Position numbers and translations under genes: made by a program
Shown: positions 37,769 through 44,401 of the stretch, one piece after another
Position numbering within the stretch: position 1 is the stretch's first letter
Layout: each line of letters begins with the position of its first letter
Source: Pirellulaceae bacterium
GTDB lineage: Bacteria; Planctomycetota; Planctomycetia; Pirellulales; Pirellulaceae
Reading direction: 5' to 3'
Assembly (NCBI GenBank): GCA_026989685.1
Contig: JALSIV010000390.1
Location: forward strand, 1 to 44,401
DNA: 44,401 nt
Notes under the pieces: model-generated
The model's input: only the letters and a program-made list of their open reading frames with translations
Databases searched by the model: none
Told to the model about the DNA's origin: nothing

Positions 37769-38377
37769 CTATCGCGAGAGGAACTCGATCACCTTTTGGA
37801 CATCGACCGGCAGACTGACGTCCTCGACACTCGGATTCCCCTGCACCGTCGCCCGTAGCGTTTCGGAGTCGAAGGTAATCCAGTCGGGAGTGATCGACTC
37901 AGCCTGGTCGGCCAAGCCGCGATAGAGATTCTGGATGTTCTTGCGGGGCCGGACGGTAATGACGTCTCCCGGTTTCACCAGAAACGACGGCTTCGTGACC
38001 TTCACGCCGTTGACCTGGAAGTGCCCGTGAACGATTCCCTGCCTGGCCTGAGGGCGAGTAAACGTGAATCCGGCTCGGCGGACCACATTGTCCAGCCTCC
38101 GCTCGCACAGCAGCAGCAAGTTGTCACCGGTGTTGCCTCGCTTGCGGGAGGCCATGTCGAAAAACCGCCTGAGCTGACGCTCGAGCAGGCCGTAATAGTG
38201 CTTGATCTTCTGCTTTTCCATCAGTGCCAGCCCGTAGTTCGACGGACGGCGTGGGCGGGTATGCATGCCGGGCGGGGCTTTCCGGCGATCGGCAGCTTTC
38301 GTCGCACCATGATTTTCGTAGACCATCGCACCCAAGCGACGGTTGACACGGGCTTTAGGGCCGGTATACCGAGCCAT
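37769..38377 (-). CDS. rpsD: 30S ribosomal protein S4
   Basis: This primary 16S rRNA-binding protein nucleates the small-subunit body. The true start is MARYTGPKARVNRRLG at 38377; upstream track residues are the leader. S4 features are GMHTRPRRPSNYGLALMEKQ, KIKHYYGLLERQLRRFF and the RNA-binding S4 domain from LLCERRLDNVVRRAGF to VNGVKVTKPSFLVKPGDVIT. No zinc-binding cysteine quartet is seen at the N-terminus, so it is a C-minus form. The length is 202 residues. The gene is outside the usual alpha operon, between the App1-like and lpd genes. GGGAG lies about 10 bases before the start. The 237-base upstream gap contains a 14-bp tandem repeat near the start and could house a regulatory leader. 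Confidence 0.97.
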   Translation of the reverse strand: MARYTGPKARVNRRLGAMVYENHGATKAADRRKAPPGMHTRPRRPSNYGLALMEKQKIKHYYGLLERQLRRFFDMASRKRGNTGDNLLLLCERRLDNVVRRAGFTFTRPQARQGIVHGHFQVNGVKVTKPSFLVKPGDVITVRPRKNIQNLYRGLADQAESITPDWITFDSETLRATVQGNPSVEDVSLPVDVQKVIEFLSR

Positions 38378-38426
38378 GAATAGGTATCTCCCAGCAATTC
38401 GATAAAACCAACTGGCTGTGACAAAA

Positions 38427-38454
38427 CTCCGTGCACGCAACTCCACGCACGCAA
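38427..38454 (-). repeat. 14-bp tandem repeat in the rpsD leader
   Basis: On the minus strand TTGCGTGCGTGGAG is followed directly by TTGCGTGCACGGAG (12/14 identical), 50-77 bases before the rpsD start. It may be a leader element or a binding site pair; its role is unknown. Confidence 0.5.
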
Positions 38455-38593
38455 TCTGTCCGAAATCGGCAAGCGACACGGCGGGCTTTGCTACAAGGTC
38501 TGAAACGTTCGGTCGAAATGACCACTCGGAAAGCGCCATCGTCCGCCGCAAACCGCGGTCAGAATCGGATATCATGGCCGATTTTCGCGTGGC

Positions 38594-38611
38594 GGGCAAG
38601 GGGCATTGCCC
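38594..38611 (-). terminator. Short stem-loop after the App1-like gene
   Basis: GGGCAA-GGGGCA-TTGCCC is a perfect 6-bp stem directly after the App1-like stop at 38615. No U-run follows. The TTGCCC downstream on the minus strand, 17 bases from CATGAT, could double as a weak promoter for rpsD. Confidence 0.4.
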
Positions 38612-38614
38612 AGG

Positions 38615-39748
38615 TTACCGAGCAGATCGCGTCTCCGGCTGGTCCAGCCGTTCGGGAAGCTGGCTGGCGTCTTCGAACAACAGCCAGCGAGACGCCGGGA
38701 GATTACGGAACATTCGTTCGGCTCGCCCGCGCTCGAGCGGTTTTTCGGGCAATTGCCGAATGTAGATCGCGGCAACCTGTCGAGGGAAGCGCCGAGCGGC
38801 AGCCGCATAGAGTTCCGGGTCTCTTTCACCGGAATCGCCGATCAACACAAACCTCCGCCCGGGAAATGACTTGAGCAGTTGACGGATCGCAGCCCCCTTT
38901 CCCATGCGACGGATCAGCAGGACTCGCCGCAACATGTGATCGCGGAGTCGGAAAGAACGCAAGTGAAAGCTGCCGGTGGGAAAACCGTGCTGACCGCACA
39001 ACTCGGTCAACGCGTGGTGAAGTTGCCAGGGACTGGCCGAGACATAATGGAACGCGACTCCCTGGCGCGCCCACTGGCGGTAGCGCTCGGCCATCCCGTC
39101 GATCGTGCGGAACGGCCGCAGGAAGGTGTTGGCGAGCAGTTCCTTCCGATCGGTGACCGAACTGACTTTGATCGTATCGTCGATGTCCGAGATCACCGAC
39201 CAACCGCTGCGCGCCACCAGGTAAACTCGCCCCTCCGATTCAGTCGACTGGCCCAGCGTTCCCACACGCACACTCAAGTAATCGTCGGACGCCGCGCCGC
39301 TGTCGCGCAGCATCTGCAACTCGCTCTCCCCGATCCGAATCACCCCGCGAAACTGCCCGTTGCGCCGACTTCTCTTGGGCAACAGGAATCGCCGATCTCC
39401 CAGACGAACGGTGACTCGATAGCCACGTTCGGTCTTGGCGACGAAATAGCGGACACGCTCGCGGAACAGATGGCTGTCCAACTCGGCTGGCGTCAACTGC
39501 ATCACTTTGCGGAGCAGGCGCAGCAATAACCGCTTCTGCAGCGTCTCAGTCTCCGCCTCATACACGGCGCCTCGGATCACCACGCGCCAGGTCGCGGGAC
39601 GATCCTGCGACGCGACGGTGGAAAAGACCACGACTTCGGGCCGCCGGTTCCGCTTGGGCCGAGGCGAGGCGACACGGACAGCTCCCTGCCGGTCGATTCG
39701 GCCCACCGCCGACTCCACACTCGAGTTGCTCACTTCCGACGATCTCAC
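38615..39748 (-). CDS. App1-family (DUF2183) phosphatidate phosphatase-like protein
   Basis: The catalytic half resembles the HAD-type phosphatase domain of yeast App1, which dephosphorylates phosphatidate. The DxDxT nucleophile motif is SDIDDTIK (D188, D190), followed by FHYVSASPWQLH and the C-terminal acidic pair in FVLIGDSGERDPELY. The N-terminal region (about 38-140, VVVFSTVASQDRPATWRVVI, GAVYEAETETLQKRLLLRLL) is the accessory domain usual in bacterial members. The length is 377 residues. It starts at a GTG (39748) with only a weak TTGGA nearby. No signal peptide is seen, so it is cytosolic or membrane-associated. The gene follows the lipoprotein gene by 58 bases and precedes rpsD. Phosphatidate is also the CdsA substrate, linking it in theme to 9542-13139. 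Confidence 0.85.
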   Translation of the reverse strand: MRSSEVSNSSVESAVGRIDRQGAVRVASPRPKRNRRPEVVVFSTVASQDRPATWRVVIRGAVYEAETETLQKRLLLRLLRKVMQLTPAELDSHLFRERVRYFVAKTERGYRVTVRLGDRRFLLPKRSRRNGQFRGVIRIGESELQMLRDSGAASDDYLSVRVGTLGQSTESEGRVYLVARSGWSVISDIDDTIKVSSVTDRKELLANTFLRPFRTIDGMAERYRQWARQGVAFHYVSASPWQLHHALTELCGQHGFPTGSFHLRSFRLRDHMLRRVLLIRRMGKGAAIRQLLKSFPGRRFVLIGDSGERDPELYAAAARRFPRQVAAIYIRQLPEKPLERGRAERMFRNLPASRWLLFEDASQLPERLDQPETRSAR

Positions 39749-39806: not shown

Positions 39807-42170
39807 CTAGTCCCTGGGCATCCAACGTTTCAGAACTTCCAGCCTCTCCTTGGCATCGCCCAGAGAAAGCTGCTCGCCCGGCAGTTTCCCGAGGATCTGC
39901 TGGTAGACTCGAGTGCGCGTGTCGTCATCGATCAGTTGCCGGCTGTAGTAAAACGCGATTTCGGCCAGGATCGGCAGTGGATTGCCGGGCGCCGACGCGT
40001 AGTCGGCTGCCAAGCGTTCCACGCGAGCCTTCGCGTGTTCGGGTTTCAGTCCCGCCGGAAGGTCGGACATGATCAGACCATTGGCCGGATCATCGATCTT
40101 GGCAATGAGATCCTCGATCCACGAATTCACGGGGTCTCCGCCCTTGGCTCGTTCGGTCTGGACTTTGATATTCGAAAGCGACTTCAGCTTGACCACTCCC
40201 GCGTTCTTGTAGACGTCCACGATCGATGCCTTGGTGTTCGTTCGAACGACACCCGTACGACTGTTGCGGACCACGTCGACGTCGAAAATCATCAGCACGT
40301 CGACTCCCTGCTGAGCGGCTTTCCGCTTGAGGGTAGTGGGGCTGCCCGTCCCGAGGAAAATCACGCCCGCGGCAAACTGAGGCGGGCCGCCGGGAGCCGC
40401 CGGCGATCGCCGGGTATCCCTTCGACCGCGATTGTTGCCTCGGTTGCCGGCTGCCGCCGGACCATGCTGGTGGTCGTGACCGTCACCTTGAGCGCCACCG
40501 CCGGCGGGAGCCGCACCACCGGGAGCTCCGCCGCCACCAAACTGAGGCGCCCCCAATCCACCGTCGGCGTCCTCCATCTCTTCACCCTCACCTTCCGGGC
40601 CACCGAATCCGCCCGGGCCTCCCGGGCCCATGCCTCCGGCGCCCAGACCGGCGGGGCCCATCCCGGCAGGTCCTCCCGGTCCGCCCATCCCGCCGGGCCC
40701 CATGCCCATTCCACCGAGTCCGGCAGATGCCCCGCCACCGGCCGTACCGGCCGATTGAGCGTTCACGAACGGCGAAAGCTGTGTAAGGATGTCGCCGAAT
40801 GAACCGCTGTCGACTCGTTCGACCAACACCTCGATCGTCCCACTTCCCAACTCACCGGCGAAGTCGGCCAGTTTCTTACCGCCCCCTCGTGCTCCCGTGC
40901 CACCACCGCCCATTCCCATCCCGGCTCCCATGTCGGCACCGGGGAAGCCGCCGCCGGGGCCGCCGGCACCGGGGAAACCACCGCCGTCGGCGCCCGGAAA
41001 GCCGCCACCGCCGCCACGACCGCGCCGAGAATTCCGAGCGGGCAGGTTCTGGGTCGAACCGATGGGATAGATCGAGCCGTTGTAGCTTCGAGGCGAAATC
41101 TTGATGTTGACCCCGATGGCCCAGCGAACGGCCAGCGTCGGACGTCGCAGCCCGCCGACCCAACCGTACTTGTTGAACAGATCACTTTCGTCATCGCTAA
41201 GAGCCAACGCGTACAAATACTGAAACGCCGCCCCTTCGCGCCCTTCGGCCATCGCCTGCTCGGCTTGCCCCATCAAGCCCTGGCTCCTGGGTTTGGCCTC
41301 GGCTTCTTGCTTCGAATTCCCCGAACCGGGGCCCGCATTTCCGGGAGCAGGTCCGCCGGGACCCTGTCCCGCTCCCAGTCCGGCGGGACCACCGGGGCCT
41401 CCTTCACCCGGATAGCCGCCCTCCTCTTCCATGCCGGGCGCCGACGCGCCGCCACTGGGATCGAAACCACCTTGGCCATAGGGATTCTCATCGCCGACCC
41501 CCGCCGGCGGACCACCCTGCCCGCTGACATCCTCACCGCCGTAGCCGCCATTCTCTTCTCCAAAGCCCTTGGGTGGACCGCCTTGGCCGCTGACATCCTC
41601 ACCGCCGTAGCCGCCGTTCTCTTCTCCAAAGCCCTTGGGCGGACCACCTTGGCCGCTCATGTCGAGCCCGCCACCCGGACCGCCGGGGCCGCCACCAGGC
41701 CCTCCGGCCGGCCCCTGCCCGCCGGCACCAACCGGCCCGCGGCTATCGGCCTCTCCATGCGAATGATTGTGACCATCCGCGGCTGCGTTCTTGTCTTTGC
41801 CTCCGCTCGAAGAAGACTTCCCAGGAGAATCCTCGTCAGCAGACATGATGGTCGGGCCGCGTGAAGCCGCCTGTCCGTGTTGATGCGACTGGCCCCCGCC
41901 GCTCCCGCCCGTATTCCCACCGAATGCTGCCAGCGTGGGGCCACGCTGTTGCGGTTGGCTTTCCTTCGGGCTCGAGGACTCCTGACGGGGCGCCGAATCG
42001 CCGGATGGCGAAGAGCTCTTTTTCGACGGCGCCGACTGTTTGGGTTCCGACTGGTCGGTGGCTTGAGCCACTTCTTGCTTCTTACTGCCGAAGAAACCGC
42101 ATCCCACGGTCGCCAAAGCCAAACAGCACACGGCCGTGCAGATGGTCCAGCAGGTCAGCGACTTTTTCAT
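39807..42170 (-). CDS. Glycine-rich, histidine-clustered lipoprotein of unknown function
   Basis: The start is the ATG at 42170 with GGGAG 7 bases upstream. A lipoprotein signal ends in LALATVGC (C24), so the protein is membrane-anchored outside the cytoplasm. The next 300 residues are disordered-looking: a Ser/Lys/Gln-rich spacer, then three similar blocks ending in RGPT or RGPV separated by His clusters (SHQHGQ, GHNHSHGE). A 22-residue unit GQGGPPKGFGEENGGYGGED follows twice plus a partial copy. A conserved-looking region (LMGQAEQAMAEGREGAAFQY, then SDLFNKYGWVGGLRRPTLAV) is followed by more Gly/Met/Pro-rich sequence and HDHQHGP. The last 190 residues look folded (QFAAGVIFLGTGSPTTLKRK, DVLMIFDVDVVRNSRTGVVR). 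Possible metal binding is inference. It is 787 residues, the largest unknown here. Its promoter is at 42240. Confidence 0.85.
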   Translation of the reverse strand: MKKSLTCWTICTAVCCLALATVGCGFFGSKKQEVAQATDQSEPKQSAPSKKSSSPSGDSAPRQESSSPKESQPQQRGPTLAAFGGNTGGSGGGQSHQHGQAASRGPTIMSADEDSPGKSSSSGGKDKNAAADGHNHSHGEADSRGPVGAGGQGPAGGPGGGPGGPGGGLDMSGQGGPPKGFGEENGGYGGEDVSGQGGPPKGFGEENGGYGGEDVSGQGGPPAGVGDENPYGQGGFDPSGGASAPGMEEEGGYPGEGGPGGPAGLGAGQGPGGPAPGNAGPGSGNSKQEAEAKPRSQGLMGQAEQAMAEGREGAAFQYLYALALSDDESDLFNKYGWVGGLRRPTLAVRWAIGVNIKISPRSYNGSIYPIGSTQNLPARNSRRGRGGGGGFPGADGGGFPGAGGPGGGFPGADMGAGMGMGGGGTGARGGGKKLADFAGELGSGTIEVLVERVDSGSFGDILTQLSPFVNAQSAGTAGGGASAGLGGMGMGPGGMGGPGGPAGMGPAGLGAGGMGPGGPGGFGGPEGEGEEMEDADGGLGAPQFGGGGAPGGAAPAGGGAQGDGHDHQHGPAAAGNRGNNRGRRDTRRSPAAPGGPPQFAAGVIFLGTGSPTTLKRKAAQQGVDVLMIFDVDVVRNSRTGVVRTNTKASIVDVYKNAGVVKLKSLSNIKVQTERAKGGDPVNSWIEDLIAKIDDPANGLIMSDLPAGLKPEHAKARVERLAADYASAPGNPLPILAEIAFYYSRQLIDDDTRTRVYQQILGKLPGEQLSLGDAKERLEVLKRWMPRD
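41523..41654 (-). repeat. 66-bp in-frame tandem repeat (22 aa x 2) in the lipoprotein gene
   Basis: Two near-identical 66-bp units encode GQGGPPKGFGEENGGYGGED plus VS, followed by a diverged third start (GQGGPPAGVGDEN). The nucleotide conservation is high, which suggests recent duplication. Confidence 0.85.
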
Positions 42171-42239
42171 AACAGGGCTCCCATCAGACGTGGCTTCAGC
42201 GCAGGGGCGGCACTCGGTCCGCTCCTTTCCCACTTGATG

Positions 42240-42268
42240 ATTATGCCAGAATCCGGGGAGCCTGTCGA
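42240..42268 (-). promoter_or_regulatory. Sigma-70 promoter for the lipoprotein gene
   Basis: On the minus strand TCGACA (42268-42263), 17 bases, then CATAAT (42245-42240), each 5/6 to consensus, with TGG directly before the -10. The predicted leader is about 60 bases. Confidence 0.65.
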
Positions 42269-42337
42269 GCAAGGGGGGCCGATTTGGCAAGTTGGGCAAC
42301 GAGAGCCGTGGGCCGCGGTAGCACCCGACGGAGCCGA

Positions 42338-43042
42338 TCAGGCCACCAGCGCCCCCAGCAGGCGGCCGCCGCCGCGAGCCGCATCGGAAACCGCGCCGAG
42401 CGCTCGCTCCCGTTCACTCACGCCGCTCTGCAGGACCAGCACCGCGGCGTGGCAACAGCGCTGGAATGCCTCGGTCAGCGGATCGTCCGGAGGCCCGGCC
42501 ACAACCAGCACCAAGCGGTGGCGTCCCACCCGCTGCAACAAATCGGCGATCGCTGAGTGGATTCGCCGACTGTCTCCCAACCAACCGCGGCCGGTGGGTA
42601 GGACATCGAGCCGCTCCCGGACTCGAGGCCGAACCACCGAGTTCGCTGGTCGCCCCACCCCCAAATACTCCGTCAGCCCCGCCTCGGCCTGCAGCCCCAA
42701 TTCGGCAGTGGCGTGCCTGCGGCGCACGTCGGCATCGATCAGCAGCACCGTTTCGTCCCGCAACTCGCTCAACTGCTCGGCCAACTCGATCAGGCGAACG
42801 GCCGCCGATCGGGAAGGATCCAACTGCGCACACAGCAGCGAAGCCGCCTGGCAGACCTGCAGCGAGCGTTGGACGCGGGCGGCCGCGACGCGCACGGGAG
42901 CAGCACCATCGTCACGGCTGGACCGCAGCGACTCCGCGGCTTGCACCATACGTTTTCCATCCTGCTGCTTCACCTCACCCCGCCCCTCCTCTTTCTCGAC
43001 CTGTTCGTTCTCGTACCCTCGCCGCACGACACTCTCGTTCAC
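42338..43042 (-). CDS. Degenerate CpsD/BY-kinase-like (ParA-fold) protein
   Basis: Residues from about 95 onward follow the order of bacterial tyrosine kinases that control exopolysaccharide assembly. ETVLLIDADVRRRHATAELG corresponds to Walker A', GLTEYLGVGRP to the GLSDVL segment and RERLDVLPTGRG to the L-x-VLPAG segment. RLVLVVAGPPDDPLTEAFQR is the Walker B region, but its aspartate is absent. No Walker A (GxxxxGKS/T) and no C-terminal tyrosine cluster exist. The N-terminal 60 residues are charged (NEQVEKEEGRGEVKQQDGKR) and carry no P-loop either. It is therefore probably not a kinase but a scaffold or inhibitor of an EPS system. The start is a GTG at 43042. The reading frame is the same as the upstream ATPase, from which a single TAG and 12 sense codons separate it. 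Confidence 0.65.
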   Translation of the reverse strand: MNESVVRRGYENEQVEKEEGRGEVKQQDGKRMVQAAESLRSSRDDGAAPVRVAAARVQRSLQVCQAASLLCAQLDPSRSAAVRLIELAEQLSELRDETVLLIDADVRRRHATAELGLQAEAGLTEYLGVGRPANSVVRPRVRERLDVLPTGRGWLGDSRRIHSAIADLLQRVGRHRLVLVVAGPPDDPLTEAFQRCCHAAVLVLQSGVSERERALGAVSDAARGGGRLLGALVA

Positions 43043-43078
43043 CGCAACACGGAAACTCGATCGCTGCGTCTTCGAGTC

Positions 43079-44401
43079 CTATTGCCGGTACGCTGCCAGG
43101 GTGATCGGATCTTCGATCAACTGGGCTCGATGGGGACCGCCGGATTCGCCGCCCGGCTCGTGGCGATCGGCCTCGAGTTCGGTGACTTCCAGCATGTCCC
43201 GATCATCACGAGGAAGCTCGGGAATCGTACCAGGCGTCACCCACAGCGTTTCCAGCGGCAGCCAGTTGGTATGGCCACTTACGAATTCGGTGGCATCGCG
43301 GGCCAGCTCGTCCGGTGCCGGCGCGGCAGGAGAACCGTCCGTCATCGGGTGGGCCGGCTGGGGATCCGCCGTTAATGGCACCTCGGTCTCTTCTTGAAAC
43401 GACTGCTCGAACGGATTCTCGGCCGCCGGGGCAGGCGGCAATGGAATTGCATCCGGCTCATCCCCGTTTGCCTCGCCAACCTGCTGGGCCCAGTGATCCA
43501 TCATGGCCGATGCGTTCCATTCGGTGACCTCTTCGGTGGGCTCGTCTTTCGACGTCCGATCCGCTCGCCGGGGTAGTTCGACGATGACCGGGACCTCCTC
43601 ACCGGTTTCCGATTCATCGTCGCAGTCGGACGCGTCCGCTGGAGAGGACTGCCACTGGCCGGTTTCGGGCATGCCGCTACTCCCGTCGGGCTCGTCCAAG
43701 GGGCCGAACTCGATCACCCCGGGTTCGGACTGCGCAGCCGTCTCTTGGGTGTTCCATGGGGCAGGGAGTTGCTGCAAGTCGGCCCATGCCTGTTGAACGT
43801 CTGCGGAACCGAGCGGCTCGGCCACGGGAGCCGCGCAGACTTTGCGCACCAGGGCGTGGTCGGCCAGTTGGTTGATAAGCCGAGGATTGCCGTCAGTGGC
43901 CATGGCGATTGCCGCCACCGCGTCGGGAAGAAAGAGCTGCTCCAAGGCGGCGCCGGCTCGCATCACCTGGTGAGCCAGATAGGGGCCGACTTCGTTGCGG
44001 TCCAGGGGTTGCAGATAGCAACGAGCCGCCAGACGCTGGCTCAGACTTTCCAAACGAGGACTCGCCAAGCGCTCCTCCAGGTACCCATCGGCTGCCAGAA
44101 TCAGCCGCACGCGGGGACGCCCTTGATGGTCGAGGTTGGTCAACAGGCGAAGCTCCTCGATCAACCGAGCCGACATCAGATGCGCTTCGTCCACGACCAG
44201 CAGAATGCCGTCCGTGGGAATTTCGGGGTGCGTGAGTGCATCGGTCACCGCCAGACGCAGTTGGCCTTCGTCCAGGCCCCGACTGGGCAACCGCATCTCG
44301 TGCAACATCGCCTGGTAGAGGTCGCGGCGCCGAGCCAGAGCCATCGAGCCGAGCGACACGACGGAAAACCGCTGACGAAAACTCTCAGCCAGCAGACGGC
44401 A
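43079..44401 (-). CDS. ExeA/GspA-like AAA ATPase (5' end outside window)
   Basis: The frame is open to the right end of the window, so the track's GTG start at 44359 is probably internal; the visible N-terminal part is CRLLAESFRQRFSVVSLGSM. The Walker A loop lies beyond the edge. Walker B is GILLVVDEAHLM, followed by a sensor 1-like RVRLILAADGYLEERLASPR and sensor 2-like DGNPRLINQLADHALV. This matches the ExeA/TniB-like group that includes the exosortase-associated ATPase of polysaccharide loci. The C-terminal 200 residues are an acidic, proline-rich low-complexity tail (AIPLPPAPAAENPFEQSFQE) without a recognisable domain. It is probably membrane-peripheral and linked to assembly of an envelope polymer or secretion system. 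It is followed by the degenerate CpsD-like gene. Confidence 0.8.
   Translation of the reverse strand, partial: CRLLAESFRQRFSVVSLGSMALARRRDLYQAMLHEMRLPSRGLDEGQLRLAVTDALTHPEIPTDGILLVVDEAHLMSARLIEELRLLTNLDHQGRPRVRLILAADGYLEERLASPRLESLSQRLAARCYLQPLDRNEVGPYLAHQVMRAGAALEQLFLPDAVAAIAMATDGNPRLINQLADHALVRKVCAAPVAEPLGSADVQQAWADLQQLPAPWNTQETAAQSEPGVIEFGPLDEPDGSSGMPETGQWQSSPADASDCDDESETGEEVPVIVELPRRADRTSKDEPTEEVTEWNASAMMDHWAQQVGEANGDEPDAIPLPPAPAAENPFEQSFQEETEVPLTADPQPAHPMTDGSPAAPAPDELARDATEFVSGHTNWLPLETLWVTPGTIPELPRDDRDMLEVTELEADRHEPGGESGGPHRAQLIEDPITLAAYRQ

Follow-up and report, generated by a model that had tools for sequence, protein, structure and literature searches.

A probable BY pseudokinase encoded beside an ExeA-like ATPase in a Pirellulaceae bacterium, and recurrent loss of the P-loop lysine among its planctomycete relatives

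Background

BY pseudokinases have been named as a class only recently, and few examples have been described (PMC12004946). In EcpK/EpsV of Myxococcus xanthus and in HfsB/HfsA, which serves holdfast export in Caulobacter, a BY pseudokinase is paired with a PCP-2 and is proposed to work as a scaffold that does not depend on phosphorylation (PMC12004946). ExeA-type AAA ATPases encoded beside a partner gene are known from ExeA/GspA with ExeB/GspB of type II secretion, and the GspA/GspB pair inserts secretins through the peptidoglycan (PMC9239104). The XrtA (PEP-CTERM) trio, on the other hand, brings together a tyrosine autokinase (TIGR03018), an ATPase (TIGR03015) and a chain-length determinant (TIGR03007). 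A literature search that covered planctomycete Wzc and the kinase-ATPase pair of the XrtA system, with most subscription papers outside its reach, found nothing relevant to the module described here.

The planctomycete module that we analyse resembles EcpK/EpsV in its stand-alone BYK fold, which has lost the catalytic Walker motifs and the tyrosine tail, and in the presence in relatives of a PCP-2 without a kinase domain. Unlike that system, it has the gene for an ExeA-like ATPase between those for the PCP and the pseudokinase, it keeps Walker A', a third hydrophobic segment is frequent in its PCP, and the P-loop is still intact in some members of the family. With HfsB/HfsA it shares a pseudokinase and a PCP that are separate proteins, but it has an ATPase partner and shows no evident tie to a holdfast. 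The three protein types are those of the XrtA trio, yet the planctomycete scores fall far under the cut-offs, no exosortase was found at the locus and the kinase motifs are lost. Like ExeA/GspA, the ATPase is of ExeA type (AAA_22, TIGR03015) and has a partner encoded at its side; unlike ExeA/GspA it has neither a C-terminal membrane segment nor a peptidoglycan-binding domain (AAA_22 being its only Pfam match), and its partner, unlike ExeB/GspB, has a BY-kinase fold. BY pseudokinases were already known, and what is new is the recurrent loss of the kinase lysine in linkage with an ATPase.

Results

The window, by which we mean the whole stretch of DNA that was analysed (44,401 nucleotides), is the complete contig C390 of a 4.73 Mb genome assembled into 462 contigs. 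At its right end the sequence reads through the ATPase ORF to a single TAG and then, after 36 nucleotides, into the CpsD-like ORF in the same frame (Table 1); in relatives the ATPase and the CpsD-like product are two separate proteins. Searches of NCBIfam matched the ATPase ORF to TIGR03015 (pepcterm_ATPase, E = 6.8e-26; 91.3 bits against a curated cut-off of 324.5) and Pfam gave AAA_22 (1.6e-9), its named relatives being mostly Pirellulales. The CpsD-like protein had zero Pfam matches, and its assignment needed NCBIfam and profiles: TIGR03018 (pepcterm_TyrKin, 3.1e-11; 43 bits against a cut-off of 230.65) and TIGR01007 (1.3e-5, also under the curated cut-off).

Table 1. Positions in the window of the two reading frames and of the motifs discussed in the text
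Feature	Position	Strand	Details and basis
ExeA/TIGR03015-like AAA ATPase	43079-44401	minus	440 aa; 5' part with Walker A cut by contig end
ATPase Walker B, ILLVVDEAH	44180-44206	minus	sequence; conserved in relatives
CpsD-like BY pseudokinase ORF	42338-43042	minus	234 aa from GTG; folded domain 42341-42949
Probable remnant of family N-terminal helix motif, here GKRMVQAAESLRS	42920-42958	minus	by eye; pattern not passed
P-loop (Walker A) place, AQLDPSRSAAV, without GxGK[ST]	42797-42829	minus	alignments; strand-then-helix in model
Walker A' LLIDADVRR (hhDxDxR), kept	42719-42745	minus	alignments with relatives
Walker B place, LVLVVAGPP, Val for Asp	42488-42514	minus	alignments with relatives

The original prediction had described an ATPase followed by a CpsD-like protein that retains Walker A' and lacks Walker A, the Walker B aspartate and the tyrosine cluster. 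Sequence and NCBIfam agree with that description, which is correct because AQLDPSRSAAV stands at the P-loop, LVLVVAGPP stands at Walker B, the tyrosine cluster is absent (the C-terminal tail has no Tyr at all) and Walker A' is kept. With Walker A, the Walker B Asp and the Tyr tail all absent, the protein is not a catalytic BY-kinase. A frameshift concealing the P-loop is unlikely, since the structural model has a continuous strand-helix unit at that place, in which the beta strand before the site and the helix after it both have pLDDT values of about 96.

The model, built with AlphaFold2 from an alignment of the window protein and 32 relatives, has a mean pLDDT of 90.9 and a pTM of 0.87. Foldseek placed the kinase domain of Wzc first (3la6, E = 1.2e-10, TM 0.79) and further chains of Wzc, Etk, CapAB and VpsO below it, while a profile search of PDB sequences gave BceF (1.3e-28) followed by VpsO, Etk, Wzc and CapB. 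The profile of members lacking the P-loop lysine matched canonical planctomycete BY-kinases with an E value of 7.7e-25, and Soj/ParA with one of 1.6e-10 (reversed control 0.24). A plain ParA/MinD identity can be discarded, the family being nearer to BY-kinases than to Soj. Judged from the predicted structure, the window protein is a relative of BY-kinases with a BY-kinase/ParA-type fold, and the non-ParA fold that would have spoken against the earlier description did not appear.

That description had taken the degeneration for a trait of this particular gene. The motifs are indeed missing from it, but their loss is a trait of the family. Among 66 distinct planctomycete loci with a CpsD-like gene downstream of the ATPase, the lysine of the P-loop GK[ST] is kept in nine partners (L081, L104, L113, L119, L127, L128, L129, L136, L147). 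Much of the P-loop survives in six others, with Thr or Ala in place of the lysine, and in the remaining 51 it is unrecognisable, the glycines having gone too, as they have in the window protein; several members with long disordered N-termini were misplaced by the automatic alignment, and their P-loop column was taken from other alignments. The Walker A' Asp is nearly invariant throughout the CpsD-like family. As a control we took 28 Wzc-type BY-kinases from the same order: the lysine is present in all of them, and also in both of two further, Soj-like, matches of the control search; the partner ATPases carry GxGK[ST] in 134 of 135 cases.

The window genome has a second ATPase/CpsD-like pair on C278 (L157:2840-6388), whose short ATPase matches TIGR03015 at 6.2e-51. 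This second module, which we found in Pirellulales (L157, L158, L159, L236-L255), joins a CpsD-like protein to a short TIGR03015-type ATPase, and in L157-L159 a proline-rich single-TM protein was also seen. The P-loop lysine is replaced in all 22 genomes, mostly by Arg but also by Cys, Thr, Ser or Ala, and nearly all of these partners keep the remaining P-loop, A' and the Walker B Asp. Two separate pairings with an ExeA-like ATPase are thus each accompanied by loss of the kinase lysine. Compared with the control kinases, the loss has Fisher P values of about 2e-16 and about 1e-14 for the two modules, relatedness being ignored in both; the genomes and loci counted are related and non-independent, a number of the loci are MAG fragments, and some came from two collections, duplicates being dropped where counted. 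Mapping the state of the lysine on the ATPase tree, a quick build with many open forks, requires at least three changes, and 5 to 11 losses if regain is disallowed.

Only 0-1 Tyr lies within the last 25 aa in 65 of the 66 family members, and because those with an intact P-loop are already tail-less, the tyrosine tail was probably lost before the P-loop. Of the 66 members, 42 carry the helix motif M[SG]xhLxALxxhE at the N-terminus, whereas shuffled sequences would be expected to give 5.8; this motif persists in members without a P-loop and may be a docking element. At L227 and L228, proteins of about 165-180 aa that the family profile does not match occupy the CpsD-like place, at most 600 bases past the ATPase stop, and are possibly a last stage of erosion.

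We estimated dN/dS in three pairs of relatives. In the pair L211/L218, both members of which lack the P-loop, the CpsD-like core has a dN/dS of 0.099 and the ATPase domain one of 0.105; in L064/L091 the values are 0.305 for the core and 0.212 for the ATPase domain, and in L212/L230 the synonymous sites are near saturation. P-loop-less partners are under purifying selection, as the dN/dS of about 0.10 in L211/L218 indicates. The genus mate of the window genome gave no match for the module. Taking together the BY-kinase fold, the missing motifs and a loss that recurs across the order under constraint, the prediction that the kinase partner is a pseudo-enzyme is supported, and in its computable features, those of sequence and fold, the window protein fits the BY pseudokinase class.

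In Pirellulales the module commonly lies beside parB-parA-DUF1015-ahcY-trpF, and on the opposite strand the order is membrane protein, ATPase and CpsD-like gene, to which some genomes add a GalE-type epimerase and a GT2 gene that is dolichol-phosphate-mannose-synthase-like (all neighbours were named by sequence reading). The membrane protein is Wzz/GumC-like: two hydrophobic segments, the first of them N-terminal, flank a coiled region of about 200-400 aa, and beyond the second comes a loop that carries the Wzc-like LxLPVV motif and is often followed by one more segment, these segments being called by hydropathy, which is a crude guide. In profile comparison the family of this protein aligns with the N-terminal part of Wzc (E = 4.1e-11; reversed control 0.4), and TIGR03007 gives weak matches to two of seven members. 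In the 102 usable loci this protein and the CpsD-like gene occur together in 34, both are missing in 45, the membrane protein alone is present in 8 and the CpsD-like gene alone in 15 (Fisher P = 2.4e-8, relatedness ignored). As PCP and pseudokinase are present or absent jointly and the ATPase occurs without them, the two behave as a pair, one possibly tied to polymer export, and the role of the ATPase may be wider. In L200 (G068, same class) the Wzz-like protein comes after the ATPase and not before it, which means that the arrangement of the genes is variable outside the order.

Of the polysaccharide genes that had been anticipated next to the module, none adjoins it inside the window, and such genes were found at its side in relatives only (epimerase, GT2 and Wzz-like genes); an epimerase lies within 4.5 kb in only 29 of 103 loci and none adjoins the window genes. 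The proposed link to exosortase loci is not supported. At the module loci of the compared genomes we found no exosortase gene, the matches lying on other contigs or far off (the only one of the window genome, where the locus could be read as far as the contig end, is on C66), and the TIGR03015 and TIGR03018 scores are those of sequences far under the cut-offs.

Strong homologues of the ATPase occur in 57 of the 60 order relatives, and of 199 genomes taken from the class, 183 match its profile. The N-terminus of the window ATPase, with Walker A, was sought throughout the genome assembly and not found. The C-terminal tail is long, acidic and variable; within it (window 43079-43720) we observed the short conserved motifs VIEFGxL and NPFxxxFxxE, the former type occurring in 81 of 136 ATPases, and it is possible that these motifs are docking peptides. 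Loci without PCP or pseudokinase often keep the ATPase, in Planctomycetales and also in G003 and G006, two small genomes where the module is reduced to ATPase, epimerase and GT2 and where searches for OPX and exosortase gave no match. This persistence means that the main job of the ATPase may lie elsewhere.

The locus had been expected to continue past the window, and both the synteny of relatives and a matching contig end bear this out. In the window genome trpF starts at base 3 of C179 and runs inward from the contig end, and behind it lie DUF1015, parA and parB (a query for ahcY gave no match at this site), which is near the arrangement expected if the left end of C179 faces the right end of C390. 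By synteny, a short gap between these contigs would hold the PCP gene.

Discussion

We consider it reasonably probable that the module is a bipartite PCP-2/BY-pseudokinase system with a dedicated ATPase giving a nucleotide-driven step. In such a system the pseudokinase, folded like the cytoplasmic tyrosine-kinase domain of Wzc and CapB but presumably unable to use ATP normally, would be co-transcribed with the ATPase and would most likely bind the cytoplasmic face of a Wzz/GumC-like co-polymerase (PCP-2), whose gene immediately precedes that of the ATPase in relatives and is predicted here inside the assembly gap. It would serve as a scaffold for the oligomeric state of the PCP-2, and the ExeA-like ATPase, the P-loop of which appears to be working in relatives, would supply the nucleotide-driven step that replaces the kinase/phosphatase cycling of Wzc systems, with a polysaccharide as the putative substrate. 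Counting against this reading are the many loci in which the ATPase stands without either protein and the small share of loci that have an epimerase nearby. The recurrent loss of the ATP site under selection suggests that the protein is now a scaffold, and the neighbouring ATPase may supply the energy; a non-catalytic control step at the locus, as first proposed from the sequence, is plausible. Extending this to the whole of Planctomycetia, so that ExeA-like ATPases took over the energy step of the co-polymerase from BY-kinases, and lineages with such a pair tended to lose the kinase P-loop lysine (57/66 and 22/22 partners in the two modules) and to keep the ATPase P-loop almost unchanged, in an ATPase-driven and phosphorylation-free export cycle, is a tentative idea that we think somewhat doubtful.

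Whether the CpsD-like gene could instead be a relic that is eroding in Planctomycetia, with the window copy near to a pseudogene, deserves consideration due to the gradient that runs from an intact P-loop through a replaced lysine, a lost P-loop and a core of 160-210 aa to absence of the gene. We regard such decay as unlikely: a P-loop-less pair has a dN/dS as low as that of its ATPase, the window ORF is intact and its model confident, and the gene is retained jointly with the PCP. The same low probability attaches, in our view, to a protein that senses rather than scaffolds, binding nucleotide through Walker A' and the backbone without hydrolysis. The near invariance of the Walker A' Asp would fit such a switch, as would the second module, in which every genome has swapped the lysine and nearly all keep the remaining loop, A' and B; in the window protein and 51 of the 66 loci of the first module, however, the P-loop glycines are gone, and tight nucleotide binding is for that reason unlikely there.

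Lower still is the chance that we would give to an envelope-assembly ATPase of GspA/ExeA type that crosses the peptidoglycan, with the pseudokinase as a GspB-like adaptor and not a partner of the PCP. The ATPase domain is ExeA-like, the partner has an N-terminal helix motif that presumably resembles the N-terminus of GspB, and at L192 (G090, Planctomycetales) a membrane-anchored, LysM-like protein (by eye) is encoded in the place of the partner, 264 bases past the ATPase stop. Against this, the partner has the fold of a BY-kinase and tracks the presence and absence of the PCP, and the ATPase has only an acidic tail where a peptidoglycan-binding or membrane part would be expected. The bipartite PCP-2 system that we favour can be approached through the order-wide set itself, which holds active, lysine-swapped, P-loop-less and absent versions of the kinase beside an ATPase that nearly always keeps its P-loop. 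It allows one to ask directly what purpose the nucleotide cycle of BY-kinases serves and whether a different ATPase can take its place, and it opens a testable way into the assembly of surface polymers in a phylum whose export machinery has received little study.

Flanking genes

On the minus strand beside the module, a large Gly/Pro-rich, lipoprotein-like ORF (39807-42299) contains 66-bp tandem repeats at 41506-41657 and a stretch, MKKSLTCWTICTAVCCLALATVGCGFF, that resembles a lipoprotein signal; no family match to it was convincing. Further along lie a minus-strand gene (38615-39748) for a protein with an APP1 phosphatidate-phosphatase catalytic domain (PF09949, 3.4e-48) and, after it, the gene for ribosomal protein S4 (37769-38599).
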